Below are positions 41,896 to 58,957 of a stretch of 64,000 nt of DNA, one piece after another. Source of the stretch: Bacteroidota bacterium (GTDB taxonomy: Bacteria > Bacteroidota > Bacteroidia > NS11-12g > UBA9320); contig WGNA01000021.1 of NCBI GenBank assembly GCA_016124755.1, forward strand, positions 16,304 through 80,303. Direction: 5' to 3'. Position numbers and translations under genes: made by a program. Below the pieces are notes generated by a model that worked only from the letters and a program-made list of their open reading frames with translations, did no database searches and was not told the origin of the DNA. Positions within the stretch are counted from its first letter, which is position 1, and every line of letters begins with the position of its first letter.

Positions 41896-42517
41896 TTTCC
41901 TGGTCTTAACAGGGATGGTGTTTCTTTCATCCTGTTCTAAAAAAGAGCAGAGTCTCCCGTATTTCAACGATCCCGCTTTTACCCCGTTTTTTTATTCTAA
42001 AGCCGAAGCGGAAACCAAAATCACACATACAATCGGTGATTTTACCTTTACGGATCAAACCGGAAAATCATTTGGGAGCCAACAACTCAAAAATAAAATT
42101 CAGGTTGCTTCATTCTTCTTTACCGGGTGTGGAAGTATTTGTCCGATCATGACGAACCATCTCACCGAAATTCAGGATTCATTTCCCGGAAGTAAAGAAA
42201 TTGTTCTGGTCTCTTTTTCGGTAATGCCCTGGGTTGATACCGTCGGTCGATTGAGTGAATATGCCGCATCACACCGGATAAATTCTGAACAGTGGCATCT
42301 GCTTACAGGTGCAACATCGGAGATCTATGCTGTGGCAAGGCAGCAATATTTCGCTGAAGAAGAAACCGGATTCACAAAAGACAGTTCCGATTTTTTACAT
42401 ACCGAACACATCATTCTTGCAGATCGGAATGGAAGAATTCGCGGTATTTATAACGGAACCCTTTTAACCGATATTCACCAACTCATCGCCGATATCCGGG
42501 TTTTGCAAAATGATTAA
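41873..42517 (+). CDS. Sco1/SenC-family copper chaperone/thioredoxin-like lipoprotein
   Basis: 214 residues from the ATG at 41873; lipobox ending FLSSC. The thioredoxin-like fold carries the Sco1 copper motif C86-x3-C90-P (TGCGSICP) and His near H176/H179 (LHTEHIIL), the usual three ligands. The role would be copper delivery to cytochrome oxidase or a related redox partner. It overlaps the MORN gene upstream and shares a TTAA palindrome as stop codon with the convergent amylase gene. Confidence 0.9.
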   Translation: MFRIVSINFLVLTGMVFLSSCSKKEQSLPYFNDPAFTPFFYSKAEAETKITHTIGDFTFTDQTGKSFGSQQLKNKIQVASFFFTGCGSICPIMTNHLTEIQDSFPGSKEIVLVSFSVMPWVDTVGRLSEYAASHRINSEQWHLLTGATSEIYAVARQQYFAEEETGFTKDSSDFLHTEHIILADRNGRIRGIYNGTLLTDIHQLIADIRVLQND

Positions 42518-45303
42518 TTTGACATCACCACATGTTGGAAGCTGAACGTTCTTCCATCACCGGAAATAAAACGAACCCAATACATACCCGGCATTAAATT
42601 AACTGAAACCGGAACTTCGCTGTTCGGTGGAATATTCGTCCATTCACGATTTGTAATTTCTTTACCCTGCAAATCCGTAATCTGTATTTTCAATAGAGCA
42701 ATTGACTTATCTCCGCTTTGAAATGCGAAAGATCCGGTTGATGGATTCGGATAAAGCTGAAGTGCAAACAACTCATTAATCTCCGGCACAGATAACACCG
42801 CCGTGTCTTTTCGATCGATCTTTTTATTTGTGTAGATGTGATATTCACCGGGGAGGAAGAACAATTTTTCTCCGCTGGATTCAACTGTAATACTATCGCC
42901 CGAAAAGTAATCGTACCAGGTTCCGTTGGTTGCAAACCCCATCGTAATATCAAGACTTTTAACATCGAAATTGCCGGCAACAACTACTTCCATATCGTCG
43001 TGATGCAAGTGAATGGTTTTTCCCATACCGGTTAGATTAATTACAAAATCATCTGTATCAAAAAGTCCTTTTTCGGTTTTGAGATAATTGAGTTCTCTGA
43101 AAACTCGGAAGAGATGATAGCGGTCTTTGTCATTGAGATATTGCCACCGGATCGGCTTGTTGCCTACTCTGCCGTTGCTGTCGATGGAAACATCATAACC
43201 CAGTTCGCCAAACTGCCAGATCATTTTTGGACCCGGAACACCCAAAAAGAAACAAGCTGCAAGTTCGATTCGATCTAATGCGGTGGATTTATCCTGAATT
43301 TTATAGCTGCCGGAAGAAGATCCGAAATGAAGGTTTTTGTACATCAATCGCTCTTCATCATGGCTTTCCATATACATTACCCAATCGGGCTCATCCTGAC
43401 CGCGGGATGCATACGAGCTATAACTCAGATCGGAAGCATAACCCATTGCGGCTTCATTAAAGGCATAGTTCATATTGCCCCAAAGTAAAAATCCATACTT
43501 GCCGAGTTCTCTTTCTTCCACCACGTGGGCGAAATGTTCGAGGATCAGAATTGCATCTGATTTATAGCTGCGGATGGCATCCGACATTCGTTTGAGAAGC
43601 GCGATACGGGAAGCATCGTAACTGCCCCAGGCATTTACATCCGAACCGTAATCGATCTGAGTAAATCCCTTACTCAGATCGAACCGAAAACCATCGATAT
43701 GAAATTCTTCAATCCAATATTTATTCACCCGGTCGAGCCAGATTTTGGTCGCTGCACTTTCATGGTTAAAATCATAACCCACATTGAAAGGGTGTTTTGC
43801 AACCGGATTCAAATACGGATTTGCAGTTGAAGGTCTGGAGTTAGCTGCGTCCCACCACATTTTGCAGAGCGGACTTTGGCCGAATGCGTGATTATAAACT
43901 ACGTCCATTATTACCGCAATCCCTTCTTTATGACAGGCATCTACAAGGGCCCGAAAGTCATTTTCATTTCCATAATATTTGTCGAGCGCCATGTGAAAAG
44001 ACACATTGTATCCCCAACTTTCATTTCCCTCAAATTCAGAGACCGGCATAAGTTCAATGGCATTTATTCCGAGTTTTTTCAGATACGGAATTGTATCTAT
44101 TAAGGACTTGTAGTCGTGAGCGGCAATAAAGTCGCGGATTAATAATTCGTACACAACCAAATCCTTTTTGGCAGGAGGCGAGAACGAATTATTCTGCCAT
44201 ACAAAAGGTGTTTTATTAAATGTAAATACACTTACAATGTCTGTGGTTTTACCGGTCGGGTAAGCCATTAGATTCGGGTACGTGGTTGAGTTGATATAAC
44301 TGTCGTTCCAGGGGTCGAGAACCTTAGTACTAAAAGGATCTGCAACCGACATATTACCATTAATTAAATACTGATAGGCATACTCTTTATCGGCTTGTAA
44401 ACCCGGAACATCGAGCCAGTATGTATTGCCATCGGCAGAAAGTCGCATGAGATAATTGGTGTCAACCTGCCAGTTGTTAAAATCACCAATTACATACACA
44501 TAGTTTTTATATGGGGCGTATAGTGTAAACCGGGCCGTTTGATTATCGAGTGTTGTTGCTCCGAGCGGCATACTTACCGATGGATTTGTTCTCGGACGAT
44601 TTGGTGTGATAACGATCTGAACCGAGTCTGCAATTTCAGAAGTCCCGTTGTCGGCAGTGATCTTCACATTGTGCACTCCGCTGGTTGTGAAACTCAATAA
44701 ATAATCAATGGAAGTTGCCGTATCAGCGGATGTTTTTTCAACTCCATCTACATATAAGTGAATATCCGATGGCTGGGAAACATACGCCAGGAAATCGATG
44801 AATTCACCAGTATTGGCGAATCGTACTTTTTCGGCGGGTGATTGAATGGAAAGCGCAAAGCCGTCGTATAAATCATAAAATATATCACTACCATCCGAAG
44901 TTCGGCCGACTTTGCTTCCATCGGCATTTCTAAAAACAAATGCGAGTCGTTTAATTATTTCACCAGAGGGAACTCCATAAAAATTCCGTATGTGATATTT
45001 TTTCTGATACGTGTTATTGCCGATATAGGTCATTAACACTTTGCTGTCGGCTTGTCCCCAGTTTCCCTGAACATATTTCCAGTCTGTTGCCGAGGAACTT
45101 TTATCGGTAATTACTCCGGCATGCATATAAACAGAGGGAGGAGTGAGATTCTCGAGTTGTTTATTACCGAGCGATGCATTATAAGTAACGGTTATGGTGT
45201 CGTTTTGTCCGGGAAACGGCGGACTAACACTCACCTGAGCATAGGCAGAAAATACTCCCGTTAAAAGGCAAAGCAGAATTAGTTTTCGCATGTGTTGAGT
45301 CAT
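42514..45303 (-). CDS. Secreted GH13 alpha-amylase-family enzyme with T9SS sorting domain
   Basis: 929 residues. Signal peptide (1-23), N-terminal Ig-like modules, a CBM48/isoamylase-N-like module at about 247-330 (FTLYAPYKNYVYVIGDFNNWQ), a GH13 (beta/alpha)8 barrel with nucleophile D542 (GFRFDLSK), acid/base E589 (LILEHFAH) and D649 (ESHDEERL), and a T9SS sorting domain at about 855-929. Region I reads MDVVYNHAFG. Activity is an alpha-amylase or branching/debranching type; exact specificity is uncertain. Convergent with the Sco1 gene; the two stops share TTAA. Confidence 0.92.
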   Translation of the reverse strand: MTQHMRKLILLCLLTGVFSAYAQVSVSPPFPGQNDTITVTYNASLGNKQLENLTPPSVYMHAGVITDKSSSATDWKYVQGNWGQADSKVLMTYIGNNTYQKKYHIRNFYGVPSGEIIKRLAFVFRNADGSKVGRTSDGSDIFYDLYDGFALSIQSPAEKVRFANTGEFIDFLAYVSQPSDIHLYVDGVEKTSADTATSIDYLLSFTTSGVHNVKITADNGTSEIADSVQIVITPNRPRTNPSVSMPLGATTLDNQTARFTLYAPYKNYVYVIGDFNNWQVDTNYLMRLSADGNTYWLDVPGLQADKEYAYQYLINGNMSVADPFSTKVLDPWNDSYINSTTYPNLMAYPTGKTTDIVSVFTFNKTPFVWQNNSFSPPAKKDLVVYELLIRDFIAAHDYKSLIDTIPYLKKLGINAIELMPVSEFEGNESWGYNVSFHMALDKYYGNENDFRALVDACHKEGIAVIMDVVYNHAFGQSPLCKMWWDAANSRPSTANPYLNPVAKHPFNVGYDFNHESAATKIWLDRVNKYWIEEFHIDGFRFDLSKGFTQIDYGSDVNAWGSYDASRIALLKRMSDAIRSYKSDAILILEHFAHVVEERELGKYGFLLWGNMNYAFNEAAMGYASDLSYSSYASRGQDEPDWVMYMESHDEERLMYKNLHFGSSSGSYKIQDKSTALDRIELAACFFLGVPGPKMIWQFGELGYDVSIDSNGRVGNKPIRWQYLNDKDRYHLFRVFRELNYLKTEKGLFDTDDFVINLTGMGKTIHLHHDDMEVVVAGNFDVKSLDITMGFATNGTWYDYFSGDSITVESSGEKLFFLPGEYHIYTNKKIDRKDTAVLSVPEINELFALQLYPNPSTGSFAFQSGDKSIALLKIQITDLQGKEITNREWTNIPPNSEVPVSVNLMPGMYWVRFISGDGRTFSFQHVVMSN

Positions 45304-45385: not shown

Positions 45386-47134
45386 TTATTGAACAATGAG
45401 CTTTTCATAGGCTGTTGATCCTTCGCCGTCGGAGATGATCAACAGATACATTCCCGGAACGAGATCCTGAATGTTCAGCGTTGTTGTTTTTTCTAATCCG
45501 GTTGCTTGCTGAACGGTTCTTCCATTCAAATCAACCAATGAAAGAACATAGTGTACGGGTTCGTTTTTGAATTTTACGGTTACCTGATTTGTTGCCGGGT
45601 TAGGGAACATCCGGTAAACATTATCAAGGTTGGAAATACCAACCGACGATACGTCACAAGAATTGAAAACATACACCGGCAGAATGGTGTCATTCATTGT
45701 ACCGGCGAAGTCTGAATAGCGGTTCCAGCCTCCGACTCCGCTTTCAACTCCGCAACCGCCGGTTTTAAAATCGAACGATTCAGAACACTTGTCGTCTGAG
45801 CATATTCCGTTGTAAACTTTCCACTGGTAATCGTCAATAATTAAAGAGGTGAAGGTGTATTCATAAATATCATCACCATTATCGTCGGTCATTTCAAAAG
45901 AGTCTTTTTTCCAAATGGCACCGGGAAATGAACCGGCGAGGAATACTCCGTTTGCATCGGCGATTTCGTTGCTCATATCTACCCGGAAGGTAACTTTCAC
46001 CGGAGGAAGTACAGACGGACAATTGGCTGTACACTCGCCAAAGCAAACCTTTACCTGATCGGTCAGAATATCCGCCCAAGCATCACCATTTCCGGCAGCT
46101 GTGTACAATCGGTTTCCGTTCGAATTGCAACCCGGAGGAATAGATTCATCGGTTCCCCAGGCATTTCCATTTAAATATTTGTGTTGATAAGACCCTTCGG
46201 AAAGTCGGAGGGTTACTTCATAAACATTATCTGAATTAGCGTCGGTCAGCATTATTCCCGCTGGATCCCAGTTGGGTTGACCTGCCTGACCGAATGCACC
46301 AGCCAGATGAACACCATTGGCACCAACTGTCTGATTGGTCATATCAACCATAAAAGTCACATCAACCGAATCGGAAGGCGGGCATAATCCGTATGCTGCA
46401 ATGTACGACGCAGTAAATCCGCTTTCACTCTGGTCGTCTCCGTCGCCTAAAAGTTTTTGGAAGCGGTTTCCACCGGAATTACATTCTCCCGGAACTCCTT
46501 CATCGCTTCCCCATGAATTTCCATTCACAAACTTGAAAGGATATTCTCCTTCGGGAAGATTGAGTGTAACCTCATAAACTTTATCGTTATCGCCGTCGGT
46601 TAATTCGATGGCAGCAGGATCCCAGTCGGCATATCCTCCGGCACCAAAACCACCGGCAACGTGAACTCCATTACTGGAAACCGTTTGCTGACTCATGTCA
46701 ACCTTTAATGTAAATGCAATTGTGTCAACCGCAGTCGGGCAGGCTTCACAGCTACCAAAGCACACAACCGGAATTGAATAAGTACCGGATGATGGTACGG
46801 TAAGTCCTCGGTTGCCACCAACATTGCAGGAAGAAGGAATTCCTTCATCGTTGCCCCATGCATTGCCATTAACAAATTTGTACTGGTAAACACTGTCGGC
46901 CGGAAGTGTTACTGTGAGTGTGTACACTCCGTCTCCGTCTCCATCAGTTAATGCAGAAGTAGAAGGATCCCAGTCACCGGCAAATCCGGCTTCATCCTGG
47001 AAGCTTCCTGCTACGTGAACACCATTGGCTCCTACCGTTTGCTTGCTCATGTCAACCTGAAAGGTAACCTGAACCTGAGCAAAGGAAAATGCAGAAGTCA
47101 AAAGCGACATCAGTAATAAGTATCCTTTTTTCAT
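45386..47134 (-). CDS. Secreted protein with four tandem starch-binding-like modules and T9SS sorting domain
   Basis: 582 residues. After a signal peptide (1-20) come four modules of about 115-120 residues at 21-137, 138-256, 257-378 and 379-495. The first three are nearly collinear: VTFxVDMSxQTVxxNGVHVAG at the start, a Trp-Asp-Pro WDP, LTDxDxDxVY, YxxKFVNGNxWGxDE and a Cys-Asn pair with GGNR. The fourth is divergent. A T9SS domain covers about 510-582. The fold is E-set/CBM20-like by sequence shape; with the neighbours I infer starch or maltodextrin binding at the cell surface. No catalytic domain. Confidence 0.82.
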   Translation of the reverse strand: MKKGYLLLMSLLTSAFSFAQVQVTFQVDMSKQTVGANGVHVAGSFQDEAGFAGDWDPSTSALTDGDGDGVYTLTVTLPADSVYQYKFVNGNAWGNDEGIPSSCNVGGNRGLTVPSSGTYSIPVVCFGSCEACPTAVDTIAFTLKVDMSQQTVSSNGVHVAGGFGAGGYADWDPAAIELTDGDNDKVYEVTLNLPEGEYPFKFVNGNSWGSDEGVPGECNSGGNRFQKLLGDGDDQSESGFTASYIAAYGLCPPSDSVDVTFMVDMTNQTVGANGVHLAGAFGQAGQPNWDPAGIMLTDANSDNVYEVTLRLSEGSYQHKYLNGNAWGTDESIPPGCNSNGNRLYTAAGNGDAWADILTDQVKVCFGECTANCPSVLPPVKVTFRVDMSNEIADANGVFLAGSFPGAIWKKDSFEMTDDNGDDIYEYTFTSLIIDDYQWKVYNGICSDDKCSESFDFKTGGCGVESGVGGWNRYSDFAGTMNDTILPVYVFNSCDVSSVGISNLDNVYRMFPNPATNQVTVKFKNEPVHYVLSLVDLNGRTVQQATGLEKTTTLNIQDLVPGMYLLIISDGEGSTAYEKLIVQ

Positions 47135-47173: not shown

Positions 47174-47192
47174 AAGTGTAATAATGACACTT
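47174..47192. promoter_or_regulatory. Putative operator AAGTGT-N7-ACACTT (site 1)
   Basis: Perfect 6-bp inverted repeat AAGTGT/ACACTT with a 7-base centre, in the 107-bp gap between the starch-binding-like gene (-) and the exported amylase (+), so it could control both. Two similar palindromes, with identical spacing, occur at 50513 and 51418 and nowhere else noticed. In + direction the right half runs acac-TTTCTTTG, the same position as the acac-TAAGTTTG promoter at site 3. Confidence 0.65.
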
Positions 47193-47241
47193 TCTTTGTT
47201 TGGAATTAACAAATTGTTACGCTAATACCCAATATTAAATC

Positions 47242-49092
47242 ATGGTCGTATTGAAATATTTAAAGTCGCTCATGCTGATTTTCTTTTTGTTAGCATTGAA
47301 TTTTCCATTGGCCGGCAACAATTCAGGGAATCAAAAAAAATTTATGATTTCCCCGCCATTCTGGTACATAGATCTGGGTTCAGATACTTTGATGCTGTTG
47401 ATTAATGCCGAAAAAATAGCCGGAAAGGAAATTTCCTTCAGCTCTGAATCCATTAAAATCATATCCGATCAGAAGGGTATGTCGCAGAATTATCGGATGA
47501 TAAAAATTTCAGTTGGCACAAATGCACCGGACAGTTTTAACATTCTTGTTAATGGAAAACCGGAATATGTTTATCACCTTTTCAAACGCAAATCCGGGAG
47601 ATCACCATTGGTTTCTTCTTCCGATAATATGTATCTGATTACACCGGATCGCTTCGCAAACGGAGATATTTCCAATGATGAAATCCGAAATTACCCGGAT
47701 CCGGTTGATCGATCTAAAAGTATGTCGAGGCACGGTGGGGATATCCGGGGAATCATTAATCACATTCCCTATTTAAATGAATTGGGAGTAACAGCTCTTT
47801 GGCTGAATCCGATCTGGGAGAACAACCAGAAAAGAGCTTCGTATCACGGATATGCCTGTACCGATTTTTACGCCATTGATCCGCGGTTCGGGAGTCTGAA
47901 AGAATATCAGGAGCTGTCTGGGAAACTGGCGGAATCAGACATTGCTTTGCTGATGGATGTGGTTTATAATCATATCGGCAGTGATCATCCATGGATGAAG
48001 GATGTTCCCGACAGTAACTGGTTTCATTTTTTTAAAACATTCACACAAAGTAATTACCGGGCGGCAGCACTTTCAGATCCGAATGCCTCCGAATTTGACC
48101 GAAACAGACTCGAAGACGGATGGTTTGTTCCTACCATGCCGGATTTAAATACCAATGATCCTTTGCTCTCCGCTTATTTAATTCAAAATACATTGTGGTG
48201 GATTGAAACAGCACATCTCTCCGGATTAAGGATTGATACGTACGCGTATCCCGGAAATTCATTTATGAGAAAGCTGACTCAAGCGGTGAAAAAAGATTTT
48301 CCTGATTGTTTTCTACTCGGTGAAATATGGGAGATCGGAGATGCTGCACAAGCATGGTTCGCTCCGAATAATATTAAAAATTCACCGGATCAGGGACTGG
48401 ATGCCGTTACCGATTACCAACTGTATTTTAGCATTAATAAGTGGTTGAAGGAAGACGAAAGCTGGAGCGAAGGGTTGGGAAGATTGTATTACGATCTCGC
48501 TGCCGATGTGCTTTACCAGAAACCGAATGAGCTGGTAACATTTGTCGACAATCACGATCAGCAACGTTTTTTCGGCACGATTGATTCCGATACCCATAAA
48601 TGGAAGCAAGCCATGACTTTCCTTTTAACCATCCGGGGAATTCCTTGTGTTTATTACGGAACCGAATTGTTGTTTTCAGAACAGGGCGACGATGGAATAA
48701 AGCGAAAAGATTTTCCGGGCGGTTGGTCAAATGATTCGTCAGATAAATTTACAGCAATCAACCGAACACCTGCAGAAACAGCCGCGTTCAACTACATCGC
48801 AACCTGGTTCATGTTTCGCAAAAATCATCCGGATATTTTCGATGGGAAACTCATCCACTTTGCTCCTGAAAAAGGATTGTATGTTTATTTCAGAAGGGGT
48901 GAAAAAGAAACTCTGATGGTGGTTCTCAGCAATTCGTATATGGATCAGGTGCTCGATGTTTCAACACTGAGAGAGATTCTTCCGGCAAATACAACGATTA
49001 ATGAATTTCCAAAAGGATCGAAAGTACCTTCATCTCAGAATCTCATTATTCCGGCAAAAGGGATTTTTATCGGAACTTTTCAAAACCGGTAA
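47242..49092 (+). CDS. Exported GH13 enzyme, neopullulanase/cyclomaltodextrinase-like
   Basis: 616 residues, signal peptide (1-26, ...NFPLAG), an N-terminal beta module and a GH13 barrel beginning MYLITPDRFANGD. Catalytic residues: D332 (LRIDTYAY), E361 (LGEIWE), D439 (DNHDQQR); region I is MDVVYNHIGSDH. The YxxxPDRFxNG opening is typical of cyclomaltodextrinase/neopullulanase-type enzymes that act on maltodextrins. No lipobox or sorting domain, so periplasm is the likely place. Convergent with the MFS gene, stops adjacent. Confidence 0.9.
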   Translation: MVVLKYLKSLMLIFFLLALNFPLAGNNSGNQKKFMISPPFWYIDLGSDTLMLLINAEKIAGKEISFSSESIKIISDQKGMSQNYRMIKISVGTNAPDSFNILVNGKPEYVYHLFKRKSGRSPLVSSSDNMYLITPDRFANGDISNDEIRNYPDPVDRSKSMSRHGGDIRGIINHIPYLNELGVTALWLNPIWENNQKRASYHGYACTDFYAIDPRFGSLKEYQELSGKLAESDIALLMDVVYNHIGSDHPWMKDVPDSNWFHFFKTFTQSNYRAAALSDPNASEFDRNRLEDGWFVPTMPDLNTNDPLLSAYLIQNTLWWIETAHLSGLRIDTYAYPGNSFMRKLTQAVKKDFPDCFLLGEIWEIGDAAQAWFAPNNIKNSPDQGLDAVTDYQLYFSINKWLKEDESWSEGLGRLYYDLAADVLYQKPNELVTFVDNHDQQRFFGTIDSDTHKWKQAMTFLLTIRGIPCVYYGTELLFSEQGDDGIKRKDFPGGWSNDSSDKFTAINRTPAETAAFNYIATWFMFRKNHPDIFDGKLIHFAPEKGLYVYFRRGEKETLMVVLSNSYMDQVLDVSTLREILPANTTINEFPKGSKVPSSQNLIIPAKGIFIGTFQNR

Positions 49093-50475
49093 TCATTCCG
49101 GAGTATAGGTGATCGCTCTTCTTTCGGTTATTAGAAAATTGCACAATCCCGCCACAACCAATGAAATGCCTGCCAGAATCATCGTATTAATGATCTGGTC
49201 ACCCAACAGGTTTTTATACAAAAAGTTGATTCCTCCAATGGATGCAACGATTTGCGGAATCACGATAAACATGTTAAACAAGCCCATGTAAAATCCCATT
49301 TTTTTCGGATCGATCGAACTGGATAACATGGCATACGGCATAGATAAAATGCTGCCCCAGGCAATTCCAACCAATGAATAACAGATGTTCAGATCCATTT
49401 CACTTCGGGCATAATACATCGCCAGAAAACCGATTCCTCCCAAAATCAAACTCGCCATGTGGATGAATTTCCGGTTGATTCTTTTTTTGGTGGTATAAAA
49501 GGTAAGCAACAGTGCAAAGGCCATCGATGAAATTCCGTACAAACCGGCTGATGCACCTACACTATCTGCAGCATTATTAAAAGCCGCATCCGCTTTTTTA
49601 TAATTGTCCGCATCTGCTTTAATAGCCATGTTATATTCCGTTTCAACCGGTTTGGGTGCGTGAAAAACGTGTTCGGTGAGTGCAGGTGTTGCCATACTCC
49701 ACATGGTAAAAAAGGCAAACCAGGAAAAGAACTGAATTACACCGAGTTTTTTCATCGTCGAATTCATGCGACCAAATCCCCGCATAATTTCCATCGTACC
49801 ATTCATAAAACCTTTGCTGTTTTCTTTTTCCTGCTGAAAAGCTTCAAGGTCTTCGGGCGGATATTCCTTTGTCGTAAAAACCGTGTACAGGATGGTAAGG
49901 ATAAACACAACGGCTCCGATTACGAAAGCAATTTTCACATTCATCGGAACCACACCTGCAGCTGCTTGGTTACTTACACCGATATTAGTCAGAATTTTTG
50001 GCAACTGACTGGCGACAAAAGTTCCGATACCGATTATGAGTGTCTGCACTACAAAACCATTTGATCGTTGAGCATCGGGAAGTTTATCGGCAACCAGCGC
50101 CCTGAACGGTTCCATACTAATATTGATACTCGCATCGAGCATCCACAAACAACCGGAAGCAACCCACAACACCGGTGAATAGGGAACGAAAAACAAAACG
50201 ATCGTACTCAAAATGGCTCCTACTAAAAAATACGGTTTTCGTCTTCCAAAAACCGGATGCCAGGTACGGTCGCTCATGTAACCAATAATTGGCTGAACTA
50301 TTAATCCCGTAAAAGGTGCTGCGAGCCACAAACCGGGAATCTGATCCGGTGTTGCACCTAATGTCTGGAATATCCTGGACATGAAACCACCCTGTAGAGC
50401 AAATCCGAATTGAATTCCGAGAAATCCGAAACTCATGTTCCAGATATCAATGAAGCGCAAACGTGGTTTCGACAT
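49093..50475 (-). CDS. MFS sugar porter (maltose-type, SLC45-like)
   Basis: 460 residues, about 12 membrane helices. N-terminal MSFGFLGIQFGFALQGGFMSRIFQTLGA with the following AAPFTGLIVQPIIGYMSDRTWHP are features of the glycoside-pentoside/SLC45-type disaccharide transporters. In this setting it would import maltose or maltodextrins into the cytoplasm by proton symport. Between helices about 190-290 there is a long soluble loop. It is convergent with the exported amylase (stops touch) and its promoter region carries operator site 2. Confidence 0.87.
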   Translation of the reverse strand: MSKPRLRFIDIWNMSFGFLGIQFGFALQGGFMSRIFQTLGATPDQIPGLWLAAPFTGLIVQPIIGYMSDRTWHPVFGRRKPYFLVGAILSTIVLFFVPYSPVLWVASGCLWMLDASINISMEPFRALVADKLPDAQRSNGFVVQTLIIGIGTFVASQLPKILTNIGVSNQAAAGVVPMNVKIAFVIGAVVFILTILYTVFTTKEYPPEDLEAFQQEKENSKGFMNGTMEIMRGFGRMNSTMKKLGVIQFFSWFAFFTMWSMATPALTEHVFHAPKPVETEYNMAIKADADNYKKADAAFNNAADSVGASAGLYGISSMAFALLLTFYTTKKRINRKFIHMASLILGGIGFLAMYYARSEMDLNICYSLVGIAWGSILSMPYAMLSSSIDPKKMGFYMGLFNMFIVIPQIVASIGGINFLYKNLLGDQIINTMILAGISLVVAGLCNFLITERRAITYTPE

Positions 50476-50512
50476 CGCTCAAATTTTTTGGGAAAGATAG
50501 AAATTATTTGAT

Positions 50513-50531
50513 ATGTGTGTTTATGACACTA
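50513..50531. promoter_or_regulatory. Putative operator ATGTGT-N7-ACACTA (site 2)
   Basis: Weaker copy of the 19-bp palindrome: TGT-N9-ACA core intact, spacing identical. It sits 38 bases upstream of the MFS ATG (50475) and about 14 bases upstream of a near-match -7 box TATCTTTC (50492-50499 on the minus strand). Confidence 0.55.
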
Positions 50532-50570
50532 AGGGAGGTGCGTCATTAAATCCTGTCGCCGAATCCGGTT

Positions 50571-51305
50571 TCAGAACGCAGGGAAATCCAAATCAACTGA
50601 ATCGAATTTCTTTTTATCAAACTTATACAGCATGGCGGGTTTATGAGCCACGCCGGTTTGTTTTTCCTGAAGTGGAACCACGAACTGAGCTTTTAAAATT
50701 TTGCGTCGGAAATTCCGCTTATCCATTCGTGTATGCAGAATAATTTCATAAAGCCTTTGCAACTGGGCTAAAGTGAATTTCTCTGGCAACAATTCAAATC
50801 CAACCGGCTCGTGATATATTTTTCGTTTCAGAAATTCAATCGCCTTATCGAAGATTTCATTGTGATCAAATGCCAGTTGTGGCACTTTATGAATAGGAAC
50901 CCAAATAGCATTGCTCGCAAATCCAGATGGAGTTGGCTTGTAATCTTCAATTTTCACTAAAGAATAATACGCAACGGTGATTACTCTTGCCTCCGGATGT
51001 GCCCGAATCTTTTTCAACCAATCCAGATCTTCCTTTTTACTGATCCGGTTCGGACTACCAAACGTAAAGAACTGCTCCAGAAAAATATTTTTCAATCCTG
51101 TAAGCTCGTATAAAACTCTCGCTGCCGCATCGTCAAGCCCTTCGTCTTCATAAATGAGGTCACCCGGTAAAGCGAGAAAGTCTTCGATTTTTTCATCCGG
51201 TGTTCGCTCGATCAAAAGCACCTTCATGTCACTTCCGTCGAATCCCAGAATCACGTTGTCAACCGAAACATTCGGGTTAATGGTATGGTTAAATGCAGCT
51301 GACAT
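50571..51305 (-). CDS. Nudix-related transcriptional regulator (NrtR/AraR-like), catalytically degenerate
   Basis: 244 residues. N-terminal Nudix fold (about 12-150) begins VSVDNVILGFDGSDMKVLLIER. The Nudix box reads GDLIYEDEGLDDAAARVLYELTGL: against GX5EX7REUXEEXGU the second Arg-Glu has become Arg-Val and one of the paired Glu is Leu, so hydrolysis is doubtful. Residues about 160-244 are a winged-helix DNA-binding domain (FTLAQLQRLYEIILHTRMDKRNFRRKIL). That architecture is the NrtR family; Bacteroidota use such proteins as sugar regulators (AraR). Divergent from the kinase-pgmB-GH65 operon. Confidence 0.88.
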   Translation of the reverse strand: MSAAFNHTINPNVSVDNVILGFDGSDMKVLLIERTPDEKIEDFLALPGDLIYEDEGLDDAAARVLYELTGLKNIFLEQFFTFGSPNRISKKEDLDWLKKIRAHPEARVITVAYYSLVKIEDYKPTPSGFASNAIWVPIHKVPQLAFDHNEIFDKAIEFLKRKIYHEPVGFELLPEKFTLAQLQRLYEIILHTRMDKRNFRRKILKAQFVVPLQEKQTGVAHKPAMLYKFDKKKFDSVDLDFPAF

Positions 51306-51337
51306 GGCAGTGACTCAGTTGAGGCCCAACAAAAAAA

Positions 51338-51353
51338 ACAAAGTCTGCTTTGT
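51338..51353 (-). promoter_or_regulatory. Small hairpin with T-run in the leader of the Nudix regulator
   Basis: Perfect palindrome ACAAAG-CAGA-CTTTGT followed on the minus strand by seven more T, 33-48 bases upstream of the ATG at 51305. Weak AT-rich stem; may be a leaky attenuator or only chance. Confidence 0.25.
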
Positions 51354-51417
51354 CCACAAAGGCTATTTGTATGTTTGTCATGCTAATAATTAATCTTCTG
51401 ATTTACATCACATCACA

Positions 51418-51436
51418 AAGTGTACAAATTACACTA
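51418..51436. promoter_or_regulatory. Putative operator AAGTGT-N7-ACACTA (site 3)
   Basis: Near-perfect copy of the palindrome between the divergent Nudix regulator and the kinase gene. Its right arm overlaps the promoter box TAAGTTTG (51435-51442) of the kinase operon, so a bound protein would block initiation. Confidence 0.65.
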
Positions 51437-51442
51437 AGTTTG
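51435..51442 (+). promoter_or_regulatory. -7 promoter box TAAGTTTG of the kinase-pgmB-GH65 operon
   Basis: Matches TAnnTTTG, 22 bases before the ATG at 51465, with its first two bases inside the right arm of operator site 3. Confidence 0.5.
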
Positions 51443-51464: not shown

Positions 51465-52316
51465 ATGATTCTGGTTGCAGACAGCGGATCGACCAAGTGT
51501 GACTGGCTCATTGCCGCAGACGGGGAAATGATTGAAACCAAGACGATGGGCTTCAACCCGTTCTTTCATACATCGGAATTAATCGCAGAACAGATATCGG
51601 CCAATCCTGAATTATCAAAAATCGCAGATGATGTTGATGCTGTTTTTTTCTACGGAGCAGGTTGTTCCAGTGAGGATCGCGACGAAATTGTGAGGAAAGC
51701 ATTGAAATCGGTGTTTACCAATGCGATCGAAATCGTGGTAGATCATGACCTCACCGGAGCGGCATTGGCAACTTGTGGTAATAATCCCGGCATTGCCTGT
51801 ATTCTCGGCACCGGATCCAATTCCTGTTATTTCGACGGGAACATGGTTTCAGAAGTTATTCCAGCGCTCGGATATATACTTGGTGACGAAGGTTCAGGAT
51901 CGTATTTCGGCAAACAACTTCTTTCCAATTACCTTTATAAAAGACTGCCAAAAGATTTGAGTGAAGAGTTTTATCAGACTTTCGGACTTGGTAAGGAAGA
52001 CATTTTAACCAGTGTTTACAACAAGCCGAACCCCAATGTTTATCTCGCTTCATTCATGCGATTTGTTTCCGATCACCGGGAGCATCCGTATGTGAGAGAA
52101 ATGATTTATAAAGGCATCCGGCATTTTGCGGAAATTCATATTCTTTGTTACGAACAGGCTAATTCGGCAACAGTGAATTTTGTTGGATCGGTCGCATATT
52201 ATTTTCATGAAGTTGTGAAACTTGTAGCTGATGATCTCGGTTTCACCGTGGGTTCCATCGTTAAAAAACCCATAACTTCTTTAGCCGAATACCATTTGCA
52301 GCGCGTTAAATCCTGA
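51465..52316 (+). CDS. BadF/BadG/BcrA-type sugar kinase (N-acetylglucosamine kinase-like)
   Basis: 283 residues of the ASKHA fold: phosphate-1 loop VADSGSTKCDWLIA, ILGTGSNSCYFDG (phosphate-2) and LGDEGSGSYFGK, typical of BadF/N-acetylglucosamine kinase-like proteins. Maltose phosphorolysis yields free glucose; a kinase first in the operon with GH65 and beta-phosphoglucomutase would phosphorylate it. This is inference from context; the annotated family substrate is GlcNAc. Ends 18 bases before pgmB. Confidence 0.85.
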   Translation: MILVADSGSTKCDWLIAADGEMIETKTMGFNPFFHTSELIAEQISANPELSKIADDVDAVFFYGAGCSSEDRDEIVRKALKSVFTNAIEIVVDHDLTGAALATCGNNPGIACILGTGSNSCYFDGNMVSEVIPALGYILGDEGSGSYFGKQLLSNYLYKRLPKDLSEEFYQTFGLGKEDILTSVYNKPNPNVYLASFMRFVSDHREHPYVREMIYKGIRHFAEIHILCYEQANSATVNFVGSVAYYFHEVVKLVADDLGFTVGSIVKKPITSLAEYHLQRVKS

Positions 52317-52334: not shown

Positions 52335-52988
52335 TTGAAAATTTCAGCCTGCATTTTCGACCTCGATGGCGTAATCACCGACACAGCCGAACATCACTTT
52401 TATTCCTGGAAAAAAATTGCCGAAAAATTCGGATTCGATCTTCAGGAAGAGAGAAATGAAGAATTAAAAGGGGTGAGCAGAAAAGAGTCTTTGCTGAAAA
52501 TAACTTCATGGGCCGGAGTTAAACTCAAGCATGCCGAAATAGAAGATTTGCTTAGACTCAAAAATGAAATCTACCTCGAAAGTATCGGGCATTTATCGGC
52601 CAGTGATATTCTCCCCGGAGTGGAACATTTTCTTTCCGATTTAAAACAAAACGGAATTCATACCGCCATCGGATCGAGCAGCAAGAATGCGCGATTTATA
52701 CTCGATCATCTCGGATTGACTTCTTTATTTCCGGTAATAAGCGACGGCAATAGCGTGGTGGAAACAAAACCGAATCCGGCGGTTTTTCTGATGGCTGCAC
52801 AACTTATGGAAGTTCCGGATGAAGAATGTGTGGTTTTCGAAGATGCGGTTTCCGGAGTGGAAGCTGCCCGTTCCGCCGGAATGAAATGCGTCGGAATTGG
52901 CAAACCTGAAATTTTGTCTCGGGCGGATGCTTGTATATCCACGCTGGAAGATTTTACTTTCGATCGATTAAAACAACTGCTCTCATGA
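52335..52988 (+). CDS. pgmB: Beta-phosphoglucomutase
   Basis: 217 residues, HAD superfamily. Starts at TTG 52335 (no ATG near), giving MKISACIFDLDGVITDTAEHH: nucleophile Asp and DxD motif are intact; GSSSKN and the acidic motif FEDAVSGVEAARSAG follow. Converts beta-glucose 1-phosphate, the product of the GH65 enzyme encoded next, to glucose 6-phosphate. Its stop overlaps the GH65 start (ATGA). Confidence 0.95.
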   Translation: MKISACIFDLDGVITDTAEHHFYSWKKIAEKFGFDLQEERNEELKGVSRKESLLKITSWAGVKLKHAEIEDLLRLKNEIYLESIGHLSASDILPGVEHFLSDLKQNGIHTAIGSSSKNARFILDHLGLTSLFPVISDGNSVVETKPNPAVFLMAAQLMEVPDEECVVFEDAVSGVEAARSAGMKCVGIGKPEILSRADACISTLEDFTFDRLKQLLS

Positions 52989-55231
52989 AGCGCTATCTGC
53001 AGATTGATCCCTGGAAAATTATTGAGGAAGGATTTCATCCGGGTTACAACCGGGTTTCCGAAAGTGTCTTTAGCACAGGAAATGGCAAATTCGGTCAGCG
53101 GGGAAATTTTGAAGAAACTTTTTCCGGAGAATCGCTTCAGGGAAGCTATGTAGCGGGTGTTTATTATCCCGATAAAACAAGGGTTGGCTGGTGGAAAAAC
53201 GGTTATCCCGAATATTTCGCAAAAGTGCTTAATGCGCCCAACTGGATTGGTATGCAGGTTTGGGTTAACGGGGAAGAACTCGATCTTGCCAAAATCAAAG
53301 AGGTGCATTCGTTTCGCCGTGCACTGGATATGCAACACGGTGTATTCAGCCGAGAAATGGAGGTTTCGTTTCAAAACGGAATTCGCTGCCGCATTGAAAC
53401 GAATCGGTTTTGCAATCTGGCGGAAACCGATTCACAATTGGTTTCCTATAAACTCACTGTTGTTAATTCCGATGCGTTAGTAGTGATGGTTCCTTTCATT
53501 GACGGGAAGGTGCTGAATTCTGATTCGAATTACGAAAACCGTTTTTGGAAACAAGGCGTTACCGACACACGGGGCGATGATCTTCTATTAATCGCAACTA
53601 CCAAAAAAACGGGTTTTGATGTTGGCATTGCTTCCAATCTTGAAGTGGTAGCGAACAATCAGCGGTTGCTTCCGAAAGATCAGCACAGCCGGAAAAAATT
53701 TGTATCCAACCGTTACTCCGCAAAACTCACTATTGGCGGAACGATGGAACTCACCCGGAAGAATATTATCGTTTCTTCACTGGATGTTCCGAGAGCTCAG
53801 ATGGAGGTTCATCTCCGTTCCAGATTATCCCAGCTCAAACCCATACCGTTTGCCCATCTTTTAGAAAAGCATGAAACCGCGTGGCGAAAAAAGTGGGAAG
53901 AAAGTGATATCGTAATTGAGGGAGATGTGGAAGCTCAGCAGGGAATCCGGTTTAATATTTTTCAACTCAACTGCACTTACAACGGAGAAGATCAACGGCT
54001 GAACATCGGTCCTAAAGGCTTTACCGGGGAGAAATACGGAGGTTCAACGTATTGGGACACAGAAGCATATTGCCTTCCGTTCTATCAGGCAACGGCAGAT
54101 GAACATGTCGCTAAAAATCTGTTGATCTATCGGTACAAGCATTTGCAAAAAGCTATTGAAAATGCCCGGATGCTCGGTTTCAAAAACGGAGCGGCACTTT
54201 ATCCGATGGTTACCATGAACGGCGAAGAATGCCACAATGAATGGGAAATCACCTTTGAGGAAATTCATCGCAACGGAGCAATTGCCTATGCAATCTTTGA
54301 TTACATCAGGTACACCGGAGATTCGGATTATTTAGCCAGTCACGGACTTGAAGTGCTCATCGGTATTTCGCGGTTCTGGCGACAGCGCGTAAACTGGAGC
54401 GAAGACAAACAGCAATTTGTAATGCTTGGCGTTACGGGTCCGAATGAATTTGAAAACAACGTCAACAACAACTGGTACACAAACCGACTCGCCGTTTGGT
54501 GTATGAAATATACAATGCAGTCGGTGGAATGGGTGAAAAATATTCATCCGACCGATTGGAAACGCATTGTTGCCAATACCGGATACAAACCCGAGGAAGC
54601 ATTATCGTGGAAAGAGGTCGTCGATAAAATGTACTTTCCATTTAGTGAAAAGCACAATGTCTTTCTTCAGCAAGACGGGTTTCTGGACAAGGAACTTATT
54701 CCTGTTGCGCAACTTCCCGAAAGTGAACGACCTATTGTCGAGCACTGGAGCTGGGATCGGATTCTAAGATCTTGTTACATCAAACAAGCAGATGTATTAC
54801 AGGGCTTTTATTTCTTCGAAGATGAATTTGATGAAGACACACTTCGAAGACATTACGATTTTTATGAACCGCTAACAGTTCACGAATCTTCCCTTTCTCC
54901 ATGCGTGCACAGTATACTGGCGGCAAAACTCGGAGACCACAGAAGAGCTTACGAATTTTATTTGCGAACCGCCCGGCTTGATCTCGACGATTACAACAAT
55001 GACACATGCGACGGTTTGCACATTACCAGCATGGCCGGAACGTGGATGAGCATCGTGAAGGGTTTTGCCGGAATGCGCGTCATCGACAACCACCTTAGCT
55101 TTAAACCATTTTTACCCGAATCCTGGAAGTCTTTCAGTTTTCACATTCGCTTCCGGGGTGAGATAATGGAAATCCAGGTGGATAAAAAAGGACTTACCAT
55201 AAACGGTGAACCGATGGCGGTTTCCGGGTGA
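52985..55231 (+). CDS. GH65 family phosphorylase (maltose phosphorylase-like)
   Basis: 748 residues from the ATG at 52985 (MKRYLQIDPWKIIEEGFHP); a longer frame inside pgmB is not used. General acid E488 in TGPNEFENNVNNNWY; phosphate-site HSI motif SLSPCVHSILAAKLG near the C-terminus; WDTEAYCLPFY is the substrate-pocket motif of the family. With pgmB next to it, it should split maltose with phosphate into beta-G1P and glucose. Kojibiose or trehalose specificity cannot be excluded from sequence alone. Confidence 0.92.
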   Translation: MKRYLQIDPWKIIEEGFHPGYNRVSESVFSTGNGKFGQRGNFEETFSGESLQGSYVAGVYYPDKTRVGWWKNGYPEYFAKVLNAPNWIGMQVWVNGEELDLAKIKEVHSFRRALDMQHGVFSREMEVSFQNGIRCRIETNRFCNLAETDSQLVSYKLTVVNSDALVVMVPFIDGKVLNSDSNYENRFWKQGVTDTRGDDLLLIATTKKTGFDVGIASNLEVVANNQRLLPKDQHSRKKFVSNRYSAKLTIGGTMELTRKNIIVSSLDVPRAQMEVHLRSRLSQLKPIPFAHLLEKHETAWRKKWEESDIVIEGDVEAQQGIRFNIFQLNCTYNGEDQRLNIGPKGFTGEKYGGSTYWDTEAYCLPFYQATADEHVAKNLLIYRYKHLQKAIENARMLGFKNGAALYPMVTMNGEECHNEWEITFEEIHRNGAIAYAIFDYIRYTGDSDYLASHGLEVLIGISRFWRQRVNWSEDKQQFVMLGVTGPNEFENNVNNNWYTNRLAVWCMKYTMQSVEWVKNIHPTDWKRIVANTGYKPEEALSWKEVVDKMYFPFSEKHNVFLQQDGFLDKELIPVAQLPESERPIVEHWSWDRILRSCYIKQADVLQGFYFFEDEFDEDTLRRHYDFYEPLTVHESSLSPCVHSILAAKLGDHRRAYEFYLRTARLDLDDYNNDTCDGLHITSMAGTWMSIVKGFAGMRVIDNHLSFKPFLPESWKSFSFHIRFRGEIMEIQVDKKGLTINGEPMAVSG

Positions 55232-55256
55232 TATTCAGAATAAAAAATTTAGTGTT

Positions 55257-57572
55257 ATGAAACACAAAGCCGGACTCTTTCTTCTTCTTTTCGCTATCCT
55301 GAACGGATGTTCCAAAAAGGCTTCATCGCCACAAGAGAGCAAGTTGTTCGGACTCGCCTCCCCAATCCAGCTCAATCACGGATCGAACACCATTTTTTTG
55401 GCGGACTACTTTCCGGTTGATCTGAAAATTGATTCGATACGAATCGACGGGCCGTTGAATTCCGGTGTGAATATGAAAGATTTTCAGATTCTCATTAACG
55501 TAGGAGATCAAAAGATTGAGCCGTTGATGAACCTCACCATTTTCGCCGAGGGAATTCCGTACAGTATTCTACTGAAATCACCGGTTAAAAAAGTCGTGAG
55601 TTTTAATTTTAATGATGAGAAAGAACATCAGGAAGTTCGCATTAAAGGTGAATTCAACAGTTGGGATCCGGCGCAATGCGAATTAAAAAAGTCGGGTAAA
55701 GAGTGGGTTGGAAAAGCGTATGTGGCTCCGGGAACCTATCCATATAAATATGTGGTGGACGGAGTTGAGCAAAACGATCCGGATAATTCTGAAACGATTT
55801 CCAACGGCATGGGAGGAAGTAATTCTGTGCTAAAAGTTGCCGGGATTAAAGAAGACAAAAAGCCGGTTTTATTCACCGATAATTTCGTTAAACACGAGAT
55901 CACTCTGGGAAGTTACAATGTGAAAGGAGTTTATGCCTATTACGAAAATTTCCGGTTACAAGCTGAGCAATCGGGTGATCAATGGATAATTAAAATCCCT
56001 CCTTTTGCAACCTACGATGCGCGTTCGCATATCCGCGTTTTTTGTTTTAATGAGGAAGCTGCCGGGAATGATATTCTGATTCCGATTAACAAGGGAAAGA
56101 TTATTACTTCCACTTCAAAACTGAACAACAACGACTGGCAGAGCAGCATCATGTATTTCCTGATGGTGGATCGTTTCTTCGACGGAGATTCAACAAACGA
56201 TCATCCTATTTCAGATCCGGCTGTTTTGCCGAAAGCGAACTACATGGGTGGCGATCTGAAGGGAATTACCGAAAAAATTAAATCCGGTTATTTCCGGGAT
56301 TTGGGAATTAATACGATCTGGATTTCACCGATAACAAGAAATCCGGATGATGCGTGGGGACAATTTCACGATCCCGAAACCAAATTCAGCGGATATCACG
56401 GTTACTGGCCAATCTCATCCAGCGAGGTTGATTATCGATTCGGCAAACCGGAGGATTTGAGGGAGATGTTGGAAACGGCGCACAAAAACGGAATCAGTGT
56501 GTTGCTCGACTATGTGGCGAATCACGTGCATCGCGAACATCCGCTTTACAAACAACATCCCGATTGGGTAACTCCGCTTTACCTTCCGGATGGATCGATG
56601 AATACGGAACGCTGGGATGATCATCGCCTCACCACCTGGTTCGATACTTTTATGCCTACTCTAAATCTGATGGATAATAAAGTCGCGGAATTTATGGTCG
56701 ATAGTGCGGCGTATTGGATGACCGAATACGACTTCGACGGTTTCCGCCACGATGCGACCAAACACATCCCCGAAAATTTCTGGCGGCTTCTCACGAAAAG
56801 AGTAAAAACCATTTCGAAGGAAAAAGGGAAGTATCTCTATCAGATCGGCGAGACTTACGGAAGTCGGGAACTCATCAACAGTTACATCGGAAGCGGAATG
56901 CTCGACGGTCAGTTTGATTTTAATCTCTACGACCAGGCACTTACTGTTTTTGCAGATGATCATCAGCCGGTAAACCGATTAACCGGAGCATTGGATGCCA
57001 GTTTGAATACGTACGGATTTCACCACTTGATGGGCAACATCAGTGGAAATCAGGATAAACCCAGATTCATCAGTTTTGCCGACGGCAGTTTGTCGTTCGA
57101 TACCGAATGGCTCGAGTACAAACGAATCGGTTGGAAGCAAACTATCGGAATTAAAAATCCGGTCGGGTACAAAAAAATGGCGTTGTTTCAAGCCTTTAAC
57201 ATGACCATTCCGGGAATTCCGATCATTTATTATGGAGATGAAATCGGAATGCCGGGAGCCGGAGATCCTGACAACCGCCGCATGATGAAGTTCGGAAAAT
57301 TATCGGATGAAGAAGCCGCATTAAAACAGAAAGTGGCCAAACTCACCAAACTGAGAATGGAACACATGGCGCTGTTGTACGGAGATTTCACCTGGATGAG
57401 AACCGACAGCGTGATCATGTTTAAGCGCAGGTATTTTAATGATGAAGTGATTGTTGCGCTGAACCGTTCCGACAAAGCCAACGAAATAAAATTACCCGAT
57501 GGAAAGCCATTGATACTGGAACCATACGACTTTGCCATTATTCCCATTAAACGACCCGAATCTGCCGAATGA
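55257..57572 (+). CDS. Lipoprotein GH13 amylase-family enzyme
   Basis: 771 residues from ATG 55257; lipobox ILNGC. An N-terminal beta module and a CBM48-like module (about 115-195, VRIKGEFNSWDPAQ) precede a GH13 barrel starting MYFLMVDRFFDGD. Nucleophile D499 (GFRHDATK), acid/base E532 (IGETYGS), third Asp D600. The last motif reads GNQDKPR instead of the usual NHD, so the conserved His is Gln599. Region I LDYVANHVH. Likely outer-membrane bound and acting on maltodextrins. Overlaps the next gene by 4 nt. Confidence 0.9.
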   Translation: MKHKAGLFLLLFAILNGCSKKASSPQESKLFGLASPIQLNHGSNTIFLADYFPVDLKIDSIRIDGPLNSGVNMKDFQILINVGDQKIEPLMNLTIFAEGIPYSILLKSPVKKVVSFNFNDEKEHQEVRIKGEFNSWDPAQCELKKSGKEWVGKAYVAPGTYPYKYVVDGVEQNDPDNSETISNGMGGSNSVLKVAGIKEDKKPVLFTDNFVKHEITLGSYNVKGVYAYYENFRLQAEQSGDQWIIKIPPFATYDARSHIRVFCFNEEAAGNDILIPINKGKIITSTSKLNNNDWQSSIMYFLMVDRFFDGDSTNDHPISDPAVLPKANYMGGDLKGITEKIKSGYFRDLGINTIWISPITRNPDDAWGQFHDPETKFSGYHGYWPISSSEVDYRFGKPEDLREMLETAHKNGISVLLDYVANHVHREHPLYKQHPDWVTPLYLPDGSMNTERWDDHRLTTWFDTFMPTLNLMDNKVAEFMVDSAAYWMTEYDFDGFRHDATKHIPENFWRLLTKRVKTISKEKGKYLYQIGETYGSRELINSYIGSGMLDGQFDFNLYDQALTVFADDHQPVNRLTGALDASLNTYGFHHLMGNISGNQDKPRFISFADGSLSFDTEWLEYKRIGWKQTIGIKNPVGYKKMALFQAFNMTIPGIPIIYYGDEIGMPGAGDPDNRRMMKFGKLSDEEAALKQKVAKLTKLRMEHMALLYGDFTWMRTDSVIMFKRRYFNDEVIVALNRSDKANEIKLPDGKPLILEPYDFAIIPIKRPESAE

Positions 57573-58957
57573 AAATGCCCAAAATACTCCTGTTGCTTTT
57601 CGGAGGAATCTTTTTGATTTCCTGCCAGAAAGTTAGTGATCACAAAACCGCCGGAAATCCGGTTGAGTATGATTCCCTCAAGTGGGTTGAGAACGCAACC
57701 ATTTACGAAGTGAACCTCCGGCATTATTCTCCGGAAGGAAATATTCAGGGTTTTATTCCGCATCTCGATCGCCTGAAAAATCTGGGAATCGACATTTTGT
57801 GGATCATGCCGATTCACCCGATCGGAATGAAAAACCGCAAGGCTAAAGGCGATCTTTTCGTGGAAGATATTGCCGACTCAACCGAGCGCATGAAATATCA
57901 GGGAAGTCCGTATTCGGTTCAGAATTACCGGGCAGTAAATCCGGATTTCGGAACCGTTGACGACTTTAAACTTTTGGTTAAGGAATGCCATAAACGCGGA
58001 ATGAAAATCATGCTCGACTGGGTGGCAAATCACACGGCCTGGGATCACGCATGGATTACCGAACATCCGGAATGGTACACACACAAAGACGGAAAAATCA
58101 CCGATCCGCTGAATGAAAAAGGCGAGAGCATCGGGTGGACCGATGTTGCCGATCTCAATTATGATGAGCCGGGTTTGCGAAAAGCAATGACCGATGATAT
58201 GATGTTTTGGGTGAAAGAATGCGACATCGACGGATTTCGTTGCGACGTGGCTTTTGAAGTTCCGGCAGATTTCTGGGATGCGGCGGTAAACGAAATCCGG
58301 AAAACCAAAAACGTATTTATGCTGGCGGAAGCAGAAGGTCATAATATGAAACTGTACGACAGCACATTTCAGATGTATTACGCGTGGAACATTCACCATC
58401 AGATGAATGAACTTGCCAAAGGAAAAATTACGCCCGAAATCTTCATTAACGAATGGAAAAAGACCGATTCGCTTTTTGAAGGCAAGGCGTTCCCGATGAA
58501 TTTTATAACCAACCACGACGAGAATTCGTGGAACGGAACCGAATTCGAACGAATGGGAAATGCCTGGAGAGCGATGGCAGTTCTGAGTTATGCGCTAAAG
58601 GGAATGCCGTTGATTTACACCGGACAGGAAATTGGTCTCGATCGCAGGTTGCCGTTTTTCGAAAAAGATACCATCGACTGGAACGTTCCGGTGGGAGATT
58701 CGTACACCGGATTTTACAGGGATCTCAACAGATTAAAAGCAATGCATTTTCTGCGGGTGAATGCTCCCATTGAATTATTGGCAACCGGAAATATTCTCGT
58801 TATCAACCGGGGTAAAGCTACCTTCATGATCAATTGTTCGGAAAATCCCGAGTCGATGAATCTCAACACCGATGGGCGGCAAATTCTCGATTCGTACGGC
58901 TGGTCGGATGATAAAAAATTCTCCGCCTGGGGGTATTTGGTTTATGCGAATGAGTGA
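57569..58957 (+). CDS. Lipoprotein GH13 alpha-amylase-family enzyme, compact
   Basis: 462 residues, lipobox ending LISC. Short GH13 without extra modules: WVENATIYEVNLRHYSPEG start, DWVANHTAWDH region I, nucleophile D226 (GFRCDVA), acid/base E254 (MLAEAEG), D317 (TNHDENSW). Resembles Bacteroidota periplasmic/outer-membrane alpha-amylases. Translationally coupled to the upstream GH13 (ATGA) and likely last gene of the operon that begins at the kinase. Confidence 0.91.
   Translation: MKMPKILLLLFGGIFLISCQKVSDHKTAGNPVEYDSLKWVENATIYEVNLRHYSPEGNIQGFIPHLDRLKNLGIDILWIMPIHPIGMKNRKAKGDLFVEDIADSTERMKYQGSPYSVQNYRAVNPDFGTVDDFKLLVKECHKRGMKIMLDWVANHTAWDHAWITEHPEWYTHKDGKITDPLNEKGESIGWTDVADLNYDEPGLRKAMTDDMMFWVKECDIDGFRCDVAFEVPADFWDAAVNEIRKTKNVFMLAEAEGHNMKLYDSTFQMYYAWNIHHQMNELAKGKITPEIFINEWKKTDSLFEGKAFPMNFITNHDENSWNGTEFERMGNAWRAMAVLSYALKGMPLIYTGQEIGLDRRLPFFEKDTIDWNVPVGDSYTGFYRDLNRLKAMHFLRVNAPIELLATGNILVINRGKATFMINCSENPESMNLNTDGRQILDSYGWSDDKKFSAWGYLVYANE

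Follow-up and report, generated by a model that had tools for sequence, protein, structure and literature searches.

Palindromes at a starch and maltose locus of a Bacteroidota bacterium as predicted operators of a Nudix-type regulator

The locus and its palindromes

The window analyzed here, a 64,000-nucleotide stretch of a Bacteroidota genome (GenBank assembly GCA_016124755.1, contig WGNA01000021.1, positions 16,304 to 80,303), contains starch and maltose genes around a gene for a regulator that combines a Nudix domain with an NrtR/AraR-type winged helix. Three 19-bp palindromes with a GTGT-N7-ACAC core occupy short intergenic gaps of this locus: AAGTGTAATAATGACACTT (site 1, 47174-47192), ATGTGTGTTTATGACACTA (site 2, 50513-50531), and AAGTGTACAAATTACACTA (site 3, 51418-51436). 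Site 1 lies 39 bp from the start of a gene bearing carbohydrate-binding modules (CBMs) and 49 bp from that of a GH13 gene, site 2 lies 37 bp upstream of a major facilitator superfamily (MFS) transporter gene, and site 3 lies 112 bp upstream of the regulator and 28 bp upstream of a sugar kinase. A first-pass annotation of the window had described these palindromes with their seven-base centre, their placement upstream of the units of the locus, and the regulator gene adjoining site 3, and all of this was found to be exact. We consider it probable that the palindromes are operators of the adjacent regulator, which likely represses a starch/maltose regulon on its promoters. The features of the locus are as follows.

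42514..45303, minus strand: secreted GH13 enzyme carrying a type IX secretion tail; follows the 45386..47134 gene in the same orientation (domain search)
45386..47134, minus strand: secreted protein; starch-binding-type modules, type IX secretion tail (domain search)
47174..47192, no strand: site 1, predicted operator in the gap between two divergent units, the CBM-bearing/GH13 operon and the SusA-like GH13 gene; relatives have a site in the matching gap; rank 2 of 34 by the matrix described below
47242..49092, plus strand: SusA-like GH13 cyclomaltodextrinase/neopullulanase (best PDB match neopullulanase SusA 9fyz, 466.5 bits)
49093..50475, minus strand: sucrose/proton-symporter-like MFS transporter, predicted inner-membrane maltose/maltodextrin carrier (PF07690 84.5 bits; TIGR01301 103.8 bits, under its cut-off)
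50513..50531, no strand: site 2, predicted operator preceding the MFS transporter gene and the weakest site; the matching gap has a site in L048-L052; matrix rank 12 of 34
50571..51305, minus strand: regulator, Nudix domain and NrtR/AraR winged helix, 244 aa (PF21906 94.4 bits, cut-off 27; PF19368 52.8 bits; PF00293 31.3 bits, cut-off 21.1; all above cut-off; best PDB match BtAraR)
51418..51436, no strand: site 3, predicted operator in the gap that separates the divergent regulator and kinase genes; relatives have a core upstream of the regulator; matrix rank 3 of 34
51435..51442, plus strand: putative promoter -7-like box TAAGTTTG of the kinase operon; shares TA, two bases, with the right arm of site 3
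51465..52316, plus strand: sugar kinase of N-acetylglucosamine-kinase type, predicted glucokinase step (domain and PDB comparison)
52335..52988, plus strand: beta-phosphoglucomutase, pgmB (TIGR01990 218.7 bits, cut-off 189.4)
52985..55231, plus strand: predicted maltose phosphorylase of family GH65 (1h54, a maltose phosphorylase, is the best PDB match at 780.5 bits; kojibiose phosphorylase follows at 438.1 bits)
55206..57572, plus strand: GH13 alpha-amylase-family enzyme with a glycogen-binding-type module (domain search)
57569..58957, plus strand: GH13 alpha-amylase-family enzyme, last gene of the kinase operon (domain search)

The core occurs in the window at these three positions only, against an expectation of 0.34 (mean of 100 dinucleotide shuffles, none of which reached three copies). 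Across the whole genome, the 19-mer AWGTGTN7ACACTW has four perfect places, all of them intergenic and upstream of starch or maltose genes; among the 31 core matches outside the locus, 15 had their surroundings examined and 12 of these lie inside open reading frames (ORFs). The fourth perfect 19-mer (G000:C39:100936-100954; L110:9936-9954) stands 45 bp upstream of the start of an operon whose products are a SusC-like protein of 1008 aa, a SusD-like protein of 454 aa, and two smaller proteins that gave weak domain hits. SusC orthologues in three other genomes (G036, G041, and G055; 56-58% identical) are followed by the same three genes and preceded by one site each, just upstream, and in relatives from another genus a site lies between SusC and a secreted GH13 gene (L054, L059, L067-L069, L071, L157, and L158).

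A scoring matrix built solely from the regulator-upstream sites of 58 relatives was applied to the 34 core matches of the own genome, and it ranked the SusC site first, followed by sites 1 and 3. The next-ranked matches were not counted as regulon members: C36:11307 lies between genes but some 290 bp upstream of the next one, and C39:83939 lies within an ORF spanning the examined stretch. One-mismatch sites of the own genome were likewise left out, as they are rarer than the control and, among those examined, mostly within ORFs.

Conservation of the sites in relatives

When the orthologous loci of relatives were compared, the motif proved to be conserved at orthologous places. In 70 of 80 regulator loci, which are the best 80 of at least 543 confirmed matches, and in 25 of the 26 loci of a second set, the 300 bp upstream of the regulator contain an exact core; the reversed core was found there in 0 of 80 and 0 of 26, where shuffles predict 0.22 and 0.06 per set. 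The record titles of the 80-locus set are chiefly those of Flavobacteriales, Crocinitomicaceae, and unplaced Bacteroidetes metagenome-assembled genomes (MAGs), and include the isolate Cryomorpha ignava; locus L168 of this set, which has 91 upstream bases only, was scored as a miss. The two sets are not independent, as they have at least six contigs in common (L160, L162, L164, L214, L226, and L239). Contigs titled as a 'Chitinophaga pinensis' MAG (L160, L164, and L214; L177, L178, and L218) fall among the Flavobacteriales relatives, and the first three of them match genomes placed in the window's own order, so that these titles look wrong.

The other gaps of the locus are conserved in part of the relatives. 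All three gaps hold a site in L048-L052, five genomes from another family of the order, with a secreted GH13 gene directly at site 1 in L049, and the gap of site 1 also keeps its site in L159 (genome G018).

Conservation was further compared with the presence of the regulator in 58 genomes, 42 of which (own included) have regulator relatives and 26 of which, besides the own genome, have a near-full-length member of group A, the group of the window's regulator; its paralogues are termed group B. The pattern WAGTGTN7ACACTW was counted 93 times in the 27 regulator-bearing genomes (control, 21) and 16 times in the 31 genomes without the regulator (control, 21), and the excess of sites over control is thus limited to genomes holding the regulator. 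In an information-content analysis of 59 non-redundant gaps, the core letters are invariant by construction, and the informative positions are the flanks and the outer arm positions, the latter not used in picking the sites; the outer positions carried a mean of 0.96 bit and the flanks 0.25 bit. Sites of relatives beside UvrD, Dus, ThyA, acyl-CoA dehydrogenase, or ketoacyl synthase genes, or within genes (L143), were set aside as probably due to chance.

The regulator and its predicted mode of action

By its domains, the regulator is a member of the NrtR family, and no other protein of its genome matches the NrtR winged-helix family. Its model aligns with 5bs6 across both domains of BtAraR (BT0354; PDB 5bs6, 5dd4, 5ddg, and 5deq), the L-arabinose regulator of Bacteroides, which likewise consists of Nudix and winged-helix parts. 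Relative to the Nudix signature given in PMC4666351, that of the regulator is impaired: Val64 and Leu68 stand in place of two glutamates, and Leu68 is invariant in 32 aligned proteins. Asp195-Lys196-Arg197-Asn198 align with the recognition positions D178, K179, R180, and N181 of BtAraR, of which Lys179, Arg180, and Asn181 contact the operator arms (PMC4666351). The BtAraR crystal operator contains AAGTGT-TACTTTT-ACACCC (Table 2 of PMC4666351), that is, GTGT-N7-ACAC, the architecture of the conserved sites predicted here. Because the recognition helix matches and the operator architecture is that of AraR, the Nudix protein is the predicted binder of the palindrome.

The recognition residues are D-K-R-N or D-R-R-N in group A, and in the 14 group B paralogues compared they are D-K-P-N (10) or D-V/T-R-N (4). 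In a phylogenetic tree, group A (21 of 21 rows) falls into a single clade with support 100/100 that excludes group B and the two reference proteins; the tree carries a warning of long branches, including those of BtAraR and SoNrtR. One group B paralogue (D-T-R-N, L076) has an exact core about 100 bp upstream of its regulator gene, and some group B proteins may share the motif.

The protein is, by its residues and gene context, not an AraR. The AraR contacts K179, R180, N181, K184, K204, and R205 are reported to be absolutely conserved in AraR orthologues (PMC4666351), and the regulator has three of them identical, two changed conservatively, and one changed (K204 to H221). Its neighbours are GH65, pgmB, GH13, MFS, and kinase genes and not arabinose genes; the predicted regulon includes a SusC/SusD operon, as that of BtAraR includes SusC/SusD operons, but it is made up of starch/maltose genes, whereas BtAraR controls arabinose genes. 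It also differs from NAD-type NrtR (Shewanella SoNrtR, PDB 3gz5/3gz6), which has ADP-ribose as effector and controls NAD genes (PMC4666351): the NCBIfam equivalog NF050029 scored 116.9 bits against a cut-off of 400, the genes around the regulator are sugar genes, and the ten scanned neighbour proteins include no NAD enzymes. XylR (BT0791) of Bacteroides, a predicted sugar-responsive NrtR branch of the same phylum (PMC3878776, PMC4666351), is set apart by its description as a regulator of xylose genes. The starch system of Bacteroides also has a SusA-like enzyme and SusC/SusD proteins under one control, but its SusR, a membrane protein, binds periplasmic maltose and acts as an activator (PMC3878776); here, a 244-aa Nudix protein accompanies an inner pathway of maltose phosphorolysis, and its Nudix and winged-helix domains span residues 13-229 of 244, although no separate membrane-segment predictor was run.

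The sugar pocket differs from that of BtAraR in ways that bear on the effector. R34, R86, and H131, which hydrogen-bond arabinose in BtAraR (PMC4666351), align with R34, R87, and H148, while Phe36 and Phe49 of the pentose pocket are replaced by Pro36 and Leu50. Directly behind R87 and beside the ligand pocket, a 15-residue insert (residues 88-102) sets the aligned group A members apart from group B paralogues and from BtAraR, which lack it; K90, D93, W96, and R101 of this insert are invariant in 15 aligned group A members. The insert and the pocket changes suggest a ligand bigger than a pentose, such as maltose or glucose phosphate, and the position of the insert makes the choice of ligand testable by structure.

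Part of the sites lie in or beside putative promoter boxes. The overlap of site 3 with a -7 box, claimed in the first-pass annotation, holds: its right arm shares TA with TAAGTTTG, which we take to be a -7-like box by the Bacteroidota -33/-7 promoter consensus. In 23 of 94 related gaps, a TAnnTTTG box facing the kinase starts at +8 relative to the centre of the site, the offset also seen in the window; in 28 of them it starts at -18/-19. At 7 of 10 sites facing the CBM20 operon, two of which come from one contig, the box begins between +17 and +19; in the window it begins at +17 (47166, minus strand). Since an operator in or beside a promoter box makes repression likely, these two promoter regions point to a repressor; the argument covers part of the regulon only.

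From these data, we infer that the Nudix protein binds the palindromes, represses from them, and is released by a sugar effector. By analogy with AraR, a dimer would set one recognition helix on each GTGT arm. In the absence of sugar, RNA polymerase would be blocked at the kinase-pgmB-GH65-GH13 operon, and also at the secreted amylase/starch-binding pair, the transporter gene, and the SusC/SusD uptake operon elsewhere in the genome, and the regulator would also control itself through the site in its own promoter gap. Starch import would then yield a cytoplasmic product that binds the inactive Nudix domain: either maltose, or the glucose or glucose phosphate from maltose phosphorolysis, for which the locus encodes a predicted maltose phosphorylase, a beta-phosphoglucomutase, and a kinase that would supply the glucokinase step. 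The bound ligand would turn the winged helices off the DNA. In BtAraR, arabinose rotates the winged helices and DNA affinity is lost (PMC4666351), and such a hinge action would be the simplest model for release, as the regulator is predicted to work like AraR.

Several results weigh against this reading. In the whole 4.05-Mb assembly, the bare core is not enriched (34 copies vs 37 of the reversed pattern); four perfect 19-mers are near chance, as about 1.5 per strand are expected from the base composition of the window; and with one mismatch allowed, the 19-mer is rarer than its control (28 and 29 vs 49 and 54). Site 2 ranks 12th of 34 by the matrix of the relatives, no exact core precedes the regulator in 10 of the 80 and 1 of the 26 loci, and an exact core is found upstream of 1 of 14 group B paralogues. 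Three of the six AraR contact residues are changed (K184 to R201, K204 to H221, and R205 to K222), and no consistent TAnnTTTG box was found at the MFS, SusA-like, other GH13 (GH13ext), SusC, or pckA sites. As the bare core is not enriched genome-wide, the case is built on the 19-mer together with its placement and conservation, and the remarkable feature of the 19-mers is where they lie, not their number. The starch/maltose regulon put forward in the first-pass annotation is thus supported as a sequence-based prediction in amended form: the core by itself is unspecific and as common as its control, all four perfect 19-mers stand before starch or maltose genes, and the distant SusC/SusD operon is a further member.

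These results also bear on other explanations. That the count of perfect 19-mers is close to the composition prediction would fit palindromes arising by chance; arms of six and a loop of seven could also fold as RNA hairpins, and the sources name relatives of the protein 8-oxo-dGTP diphosphatase or NUDIX hydrolase. An ordinary hydrolase beside chance palindromes or RNA hairpins is nevertheless scarcely credible, given the NrtR and AraR winged-helix domains, the replacement of two signature glutamates by Val64 and the invariant Leu68, and the information in the outer arm positions compared with the flanks. A different transcription factor, with the Nudix protein as a mere neighbour, is highly improbable as well: palindromes are bound by other families too, and binding by the Nudix protein is itself predicted, yet the site excess occurs solely where the regulator is present, most loci have a site in the regulator's own upstream gap, and the recognition helix fits the AraR type of operator. 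Less improbable, though still unlikely, is that the Nudix protein binds the sites but activates when sugar is present. At several targets, boxes are missing or lie away from the site, so that blocking is seen at part of the regulon, and the sites before pckA are 168-186 bp from the gene; at the kinase and CBM20-side promoters, however, the site is inside or directly beside the box in many loci, which fits blocking, and AraR, the nearest characterized relative, is released by its sugar.

Sites before central-carbon genes in one clade

In part of the relatives, sites also precede genes beyond starch and maltose use. At a distance of 168-186 bp upstream of pckA (phosphoenolpyruvate [PEP] carboxykinase), 12 of the 27 regulator-bearing genomes have a perfect core (L144, L149, L152, L155, L240, L242, L278, L280, L284-L287, and L289), as against 0 of 25 genomes lacking the regulator. 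The count covers 52 of the 58 genomes, as G004, G007, and G034 have no match and G008, G021, and G028 have broken, partial, or unfetched copies. These sites occur in all 10 regulator-bearing genomes of genera g11, g15, g16, and g19 and in 2 of the 13 from the window's family; no core precedes pckA in the own genome. Just before the pckA palindrome, another conserved element, AATAATGCACA, is present in seven exact and two near copies among the 12 genomes (G035, G040, G046, G047, G048, G050, G054, G056, and G057).

The same 10 genomes of these four genera have a core before a leucine-dehydrogenase-type (ELFV-type) gene (L293-L300, L304, and L305; nine exact and one with one mismatch). It starts 12-17 bp before the first possible start, although the true start of the gene may lie further downstream, and it is absent from all 14 genomes lacking the regulator and from all 6 other regulator-bearing ones, the count covering 30 loci. 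The pckA and leucine-dehydrogenase-type sites likely belong to the group A regulator; this assignment is likely rather than certain because many of the genomes also hold group B paralogues.

A wider reading can be offered tentatively, as somewhat less probable than not. The regulator may represent a new Nudix regulator branch that senses a glucose-type metabolite in an enlarged sugar pocket and acts as starch switch in many Flavobacteriales; one clade may have turned it into a central-carbon switch by gaining the same operator before PEP carboxykinase and the leucine-dehydrogenase-type gene. Such a role would resemble that of Cra, the central-carbon switch of enterobacteria. The predicted starch/maltose regulon would by itself add a branch to the sugar-sensing NrtR regulators and provide many uncultured Flavobacteriales with a predicted regulator of starch genes distinct from SusR; the name 8-oxo-dGTP diphosphatase used in databases would be corrected, and the operator would let such regulons be read from MAGs. 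The Bacteroidota sugar-sensing NrtR regulators described in PMC4666351 and PMC3878776, AraR and XylR, handle pentoses. No NrtR protein regulating maltose or starch was found among the papers listed in literature searches; the 2008 paper on the NrtR family may mention one, and RegPrecise was not searched.

Possible further regulon members were observed in genus g12, where L140, L141, and L142 have two sites upstream of two large ORFs; in L140, the ORFs behind the two sites carry a type IX secretion tail and passenger-transport repeats.

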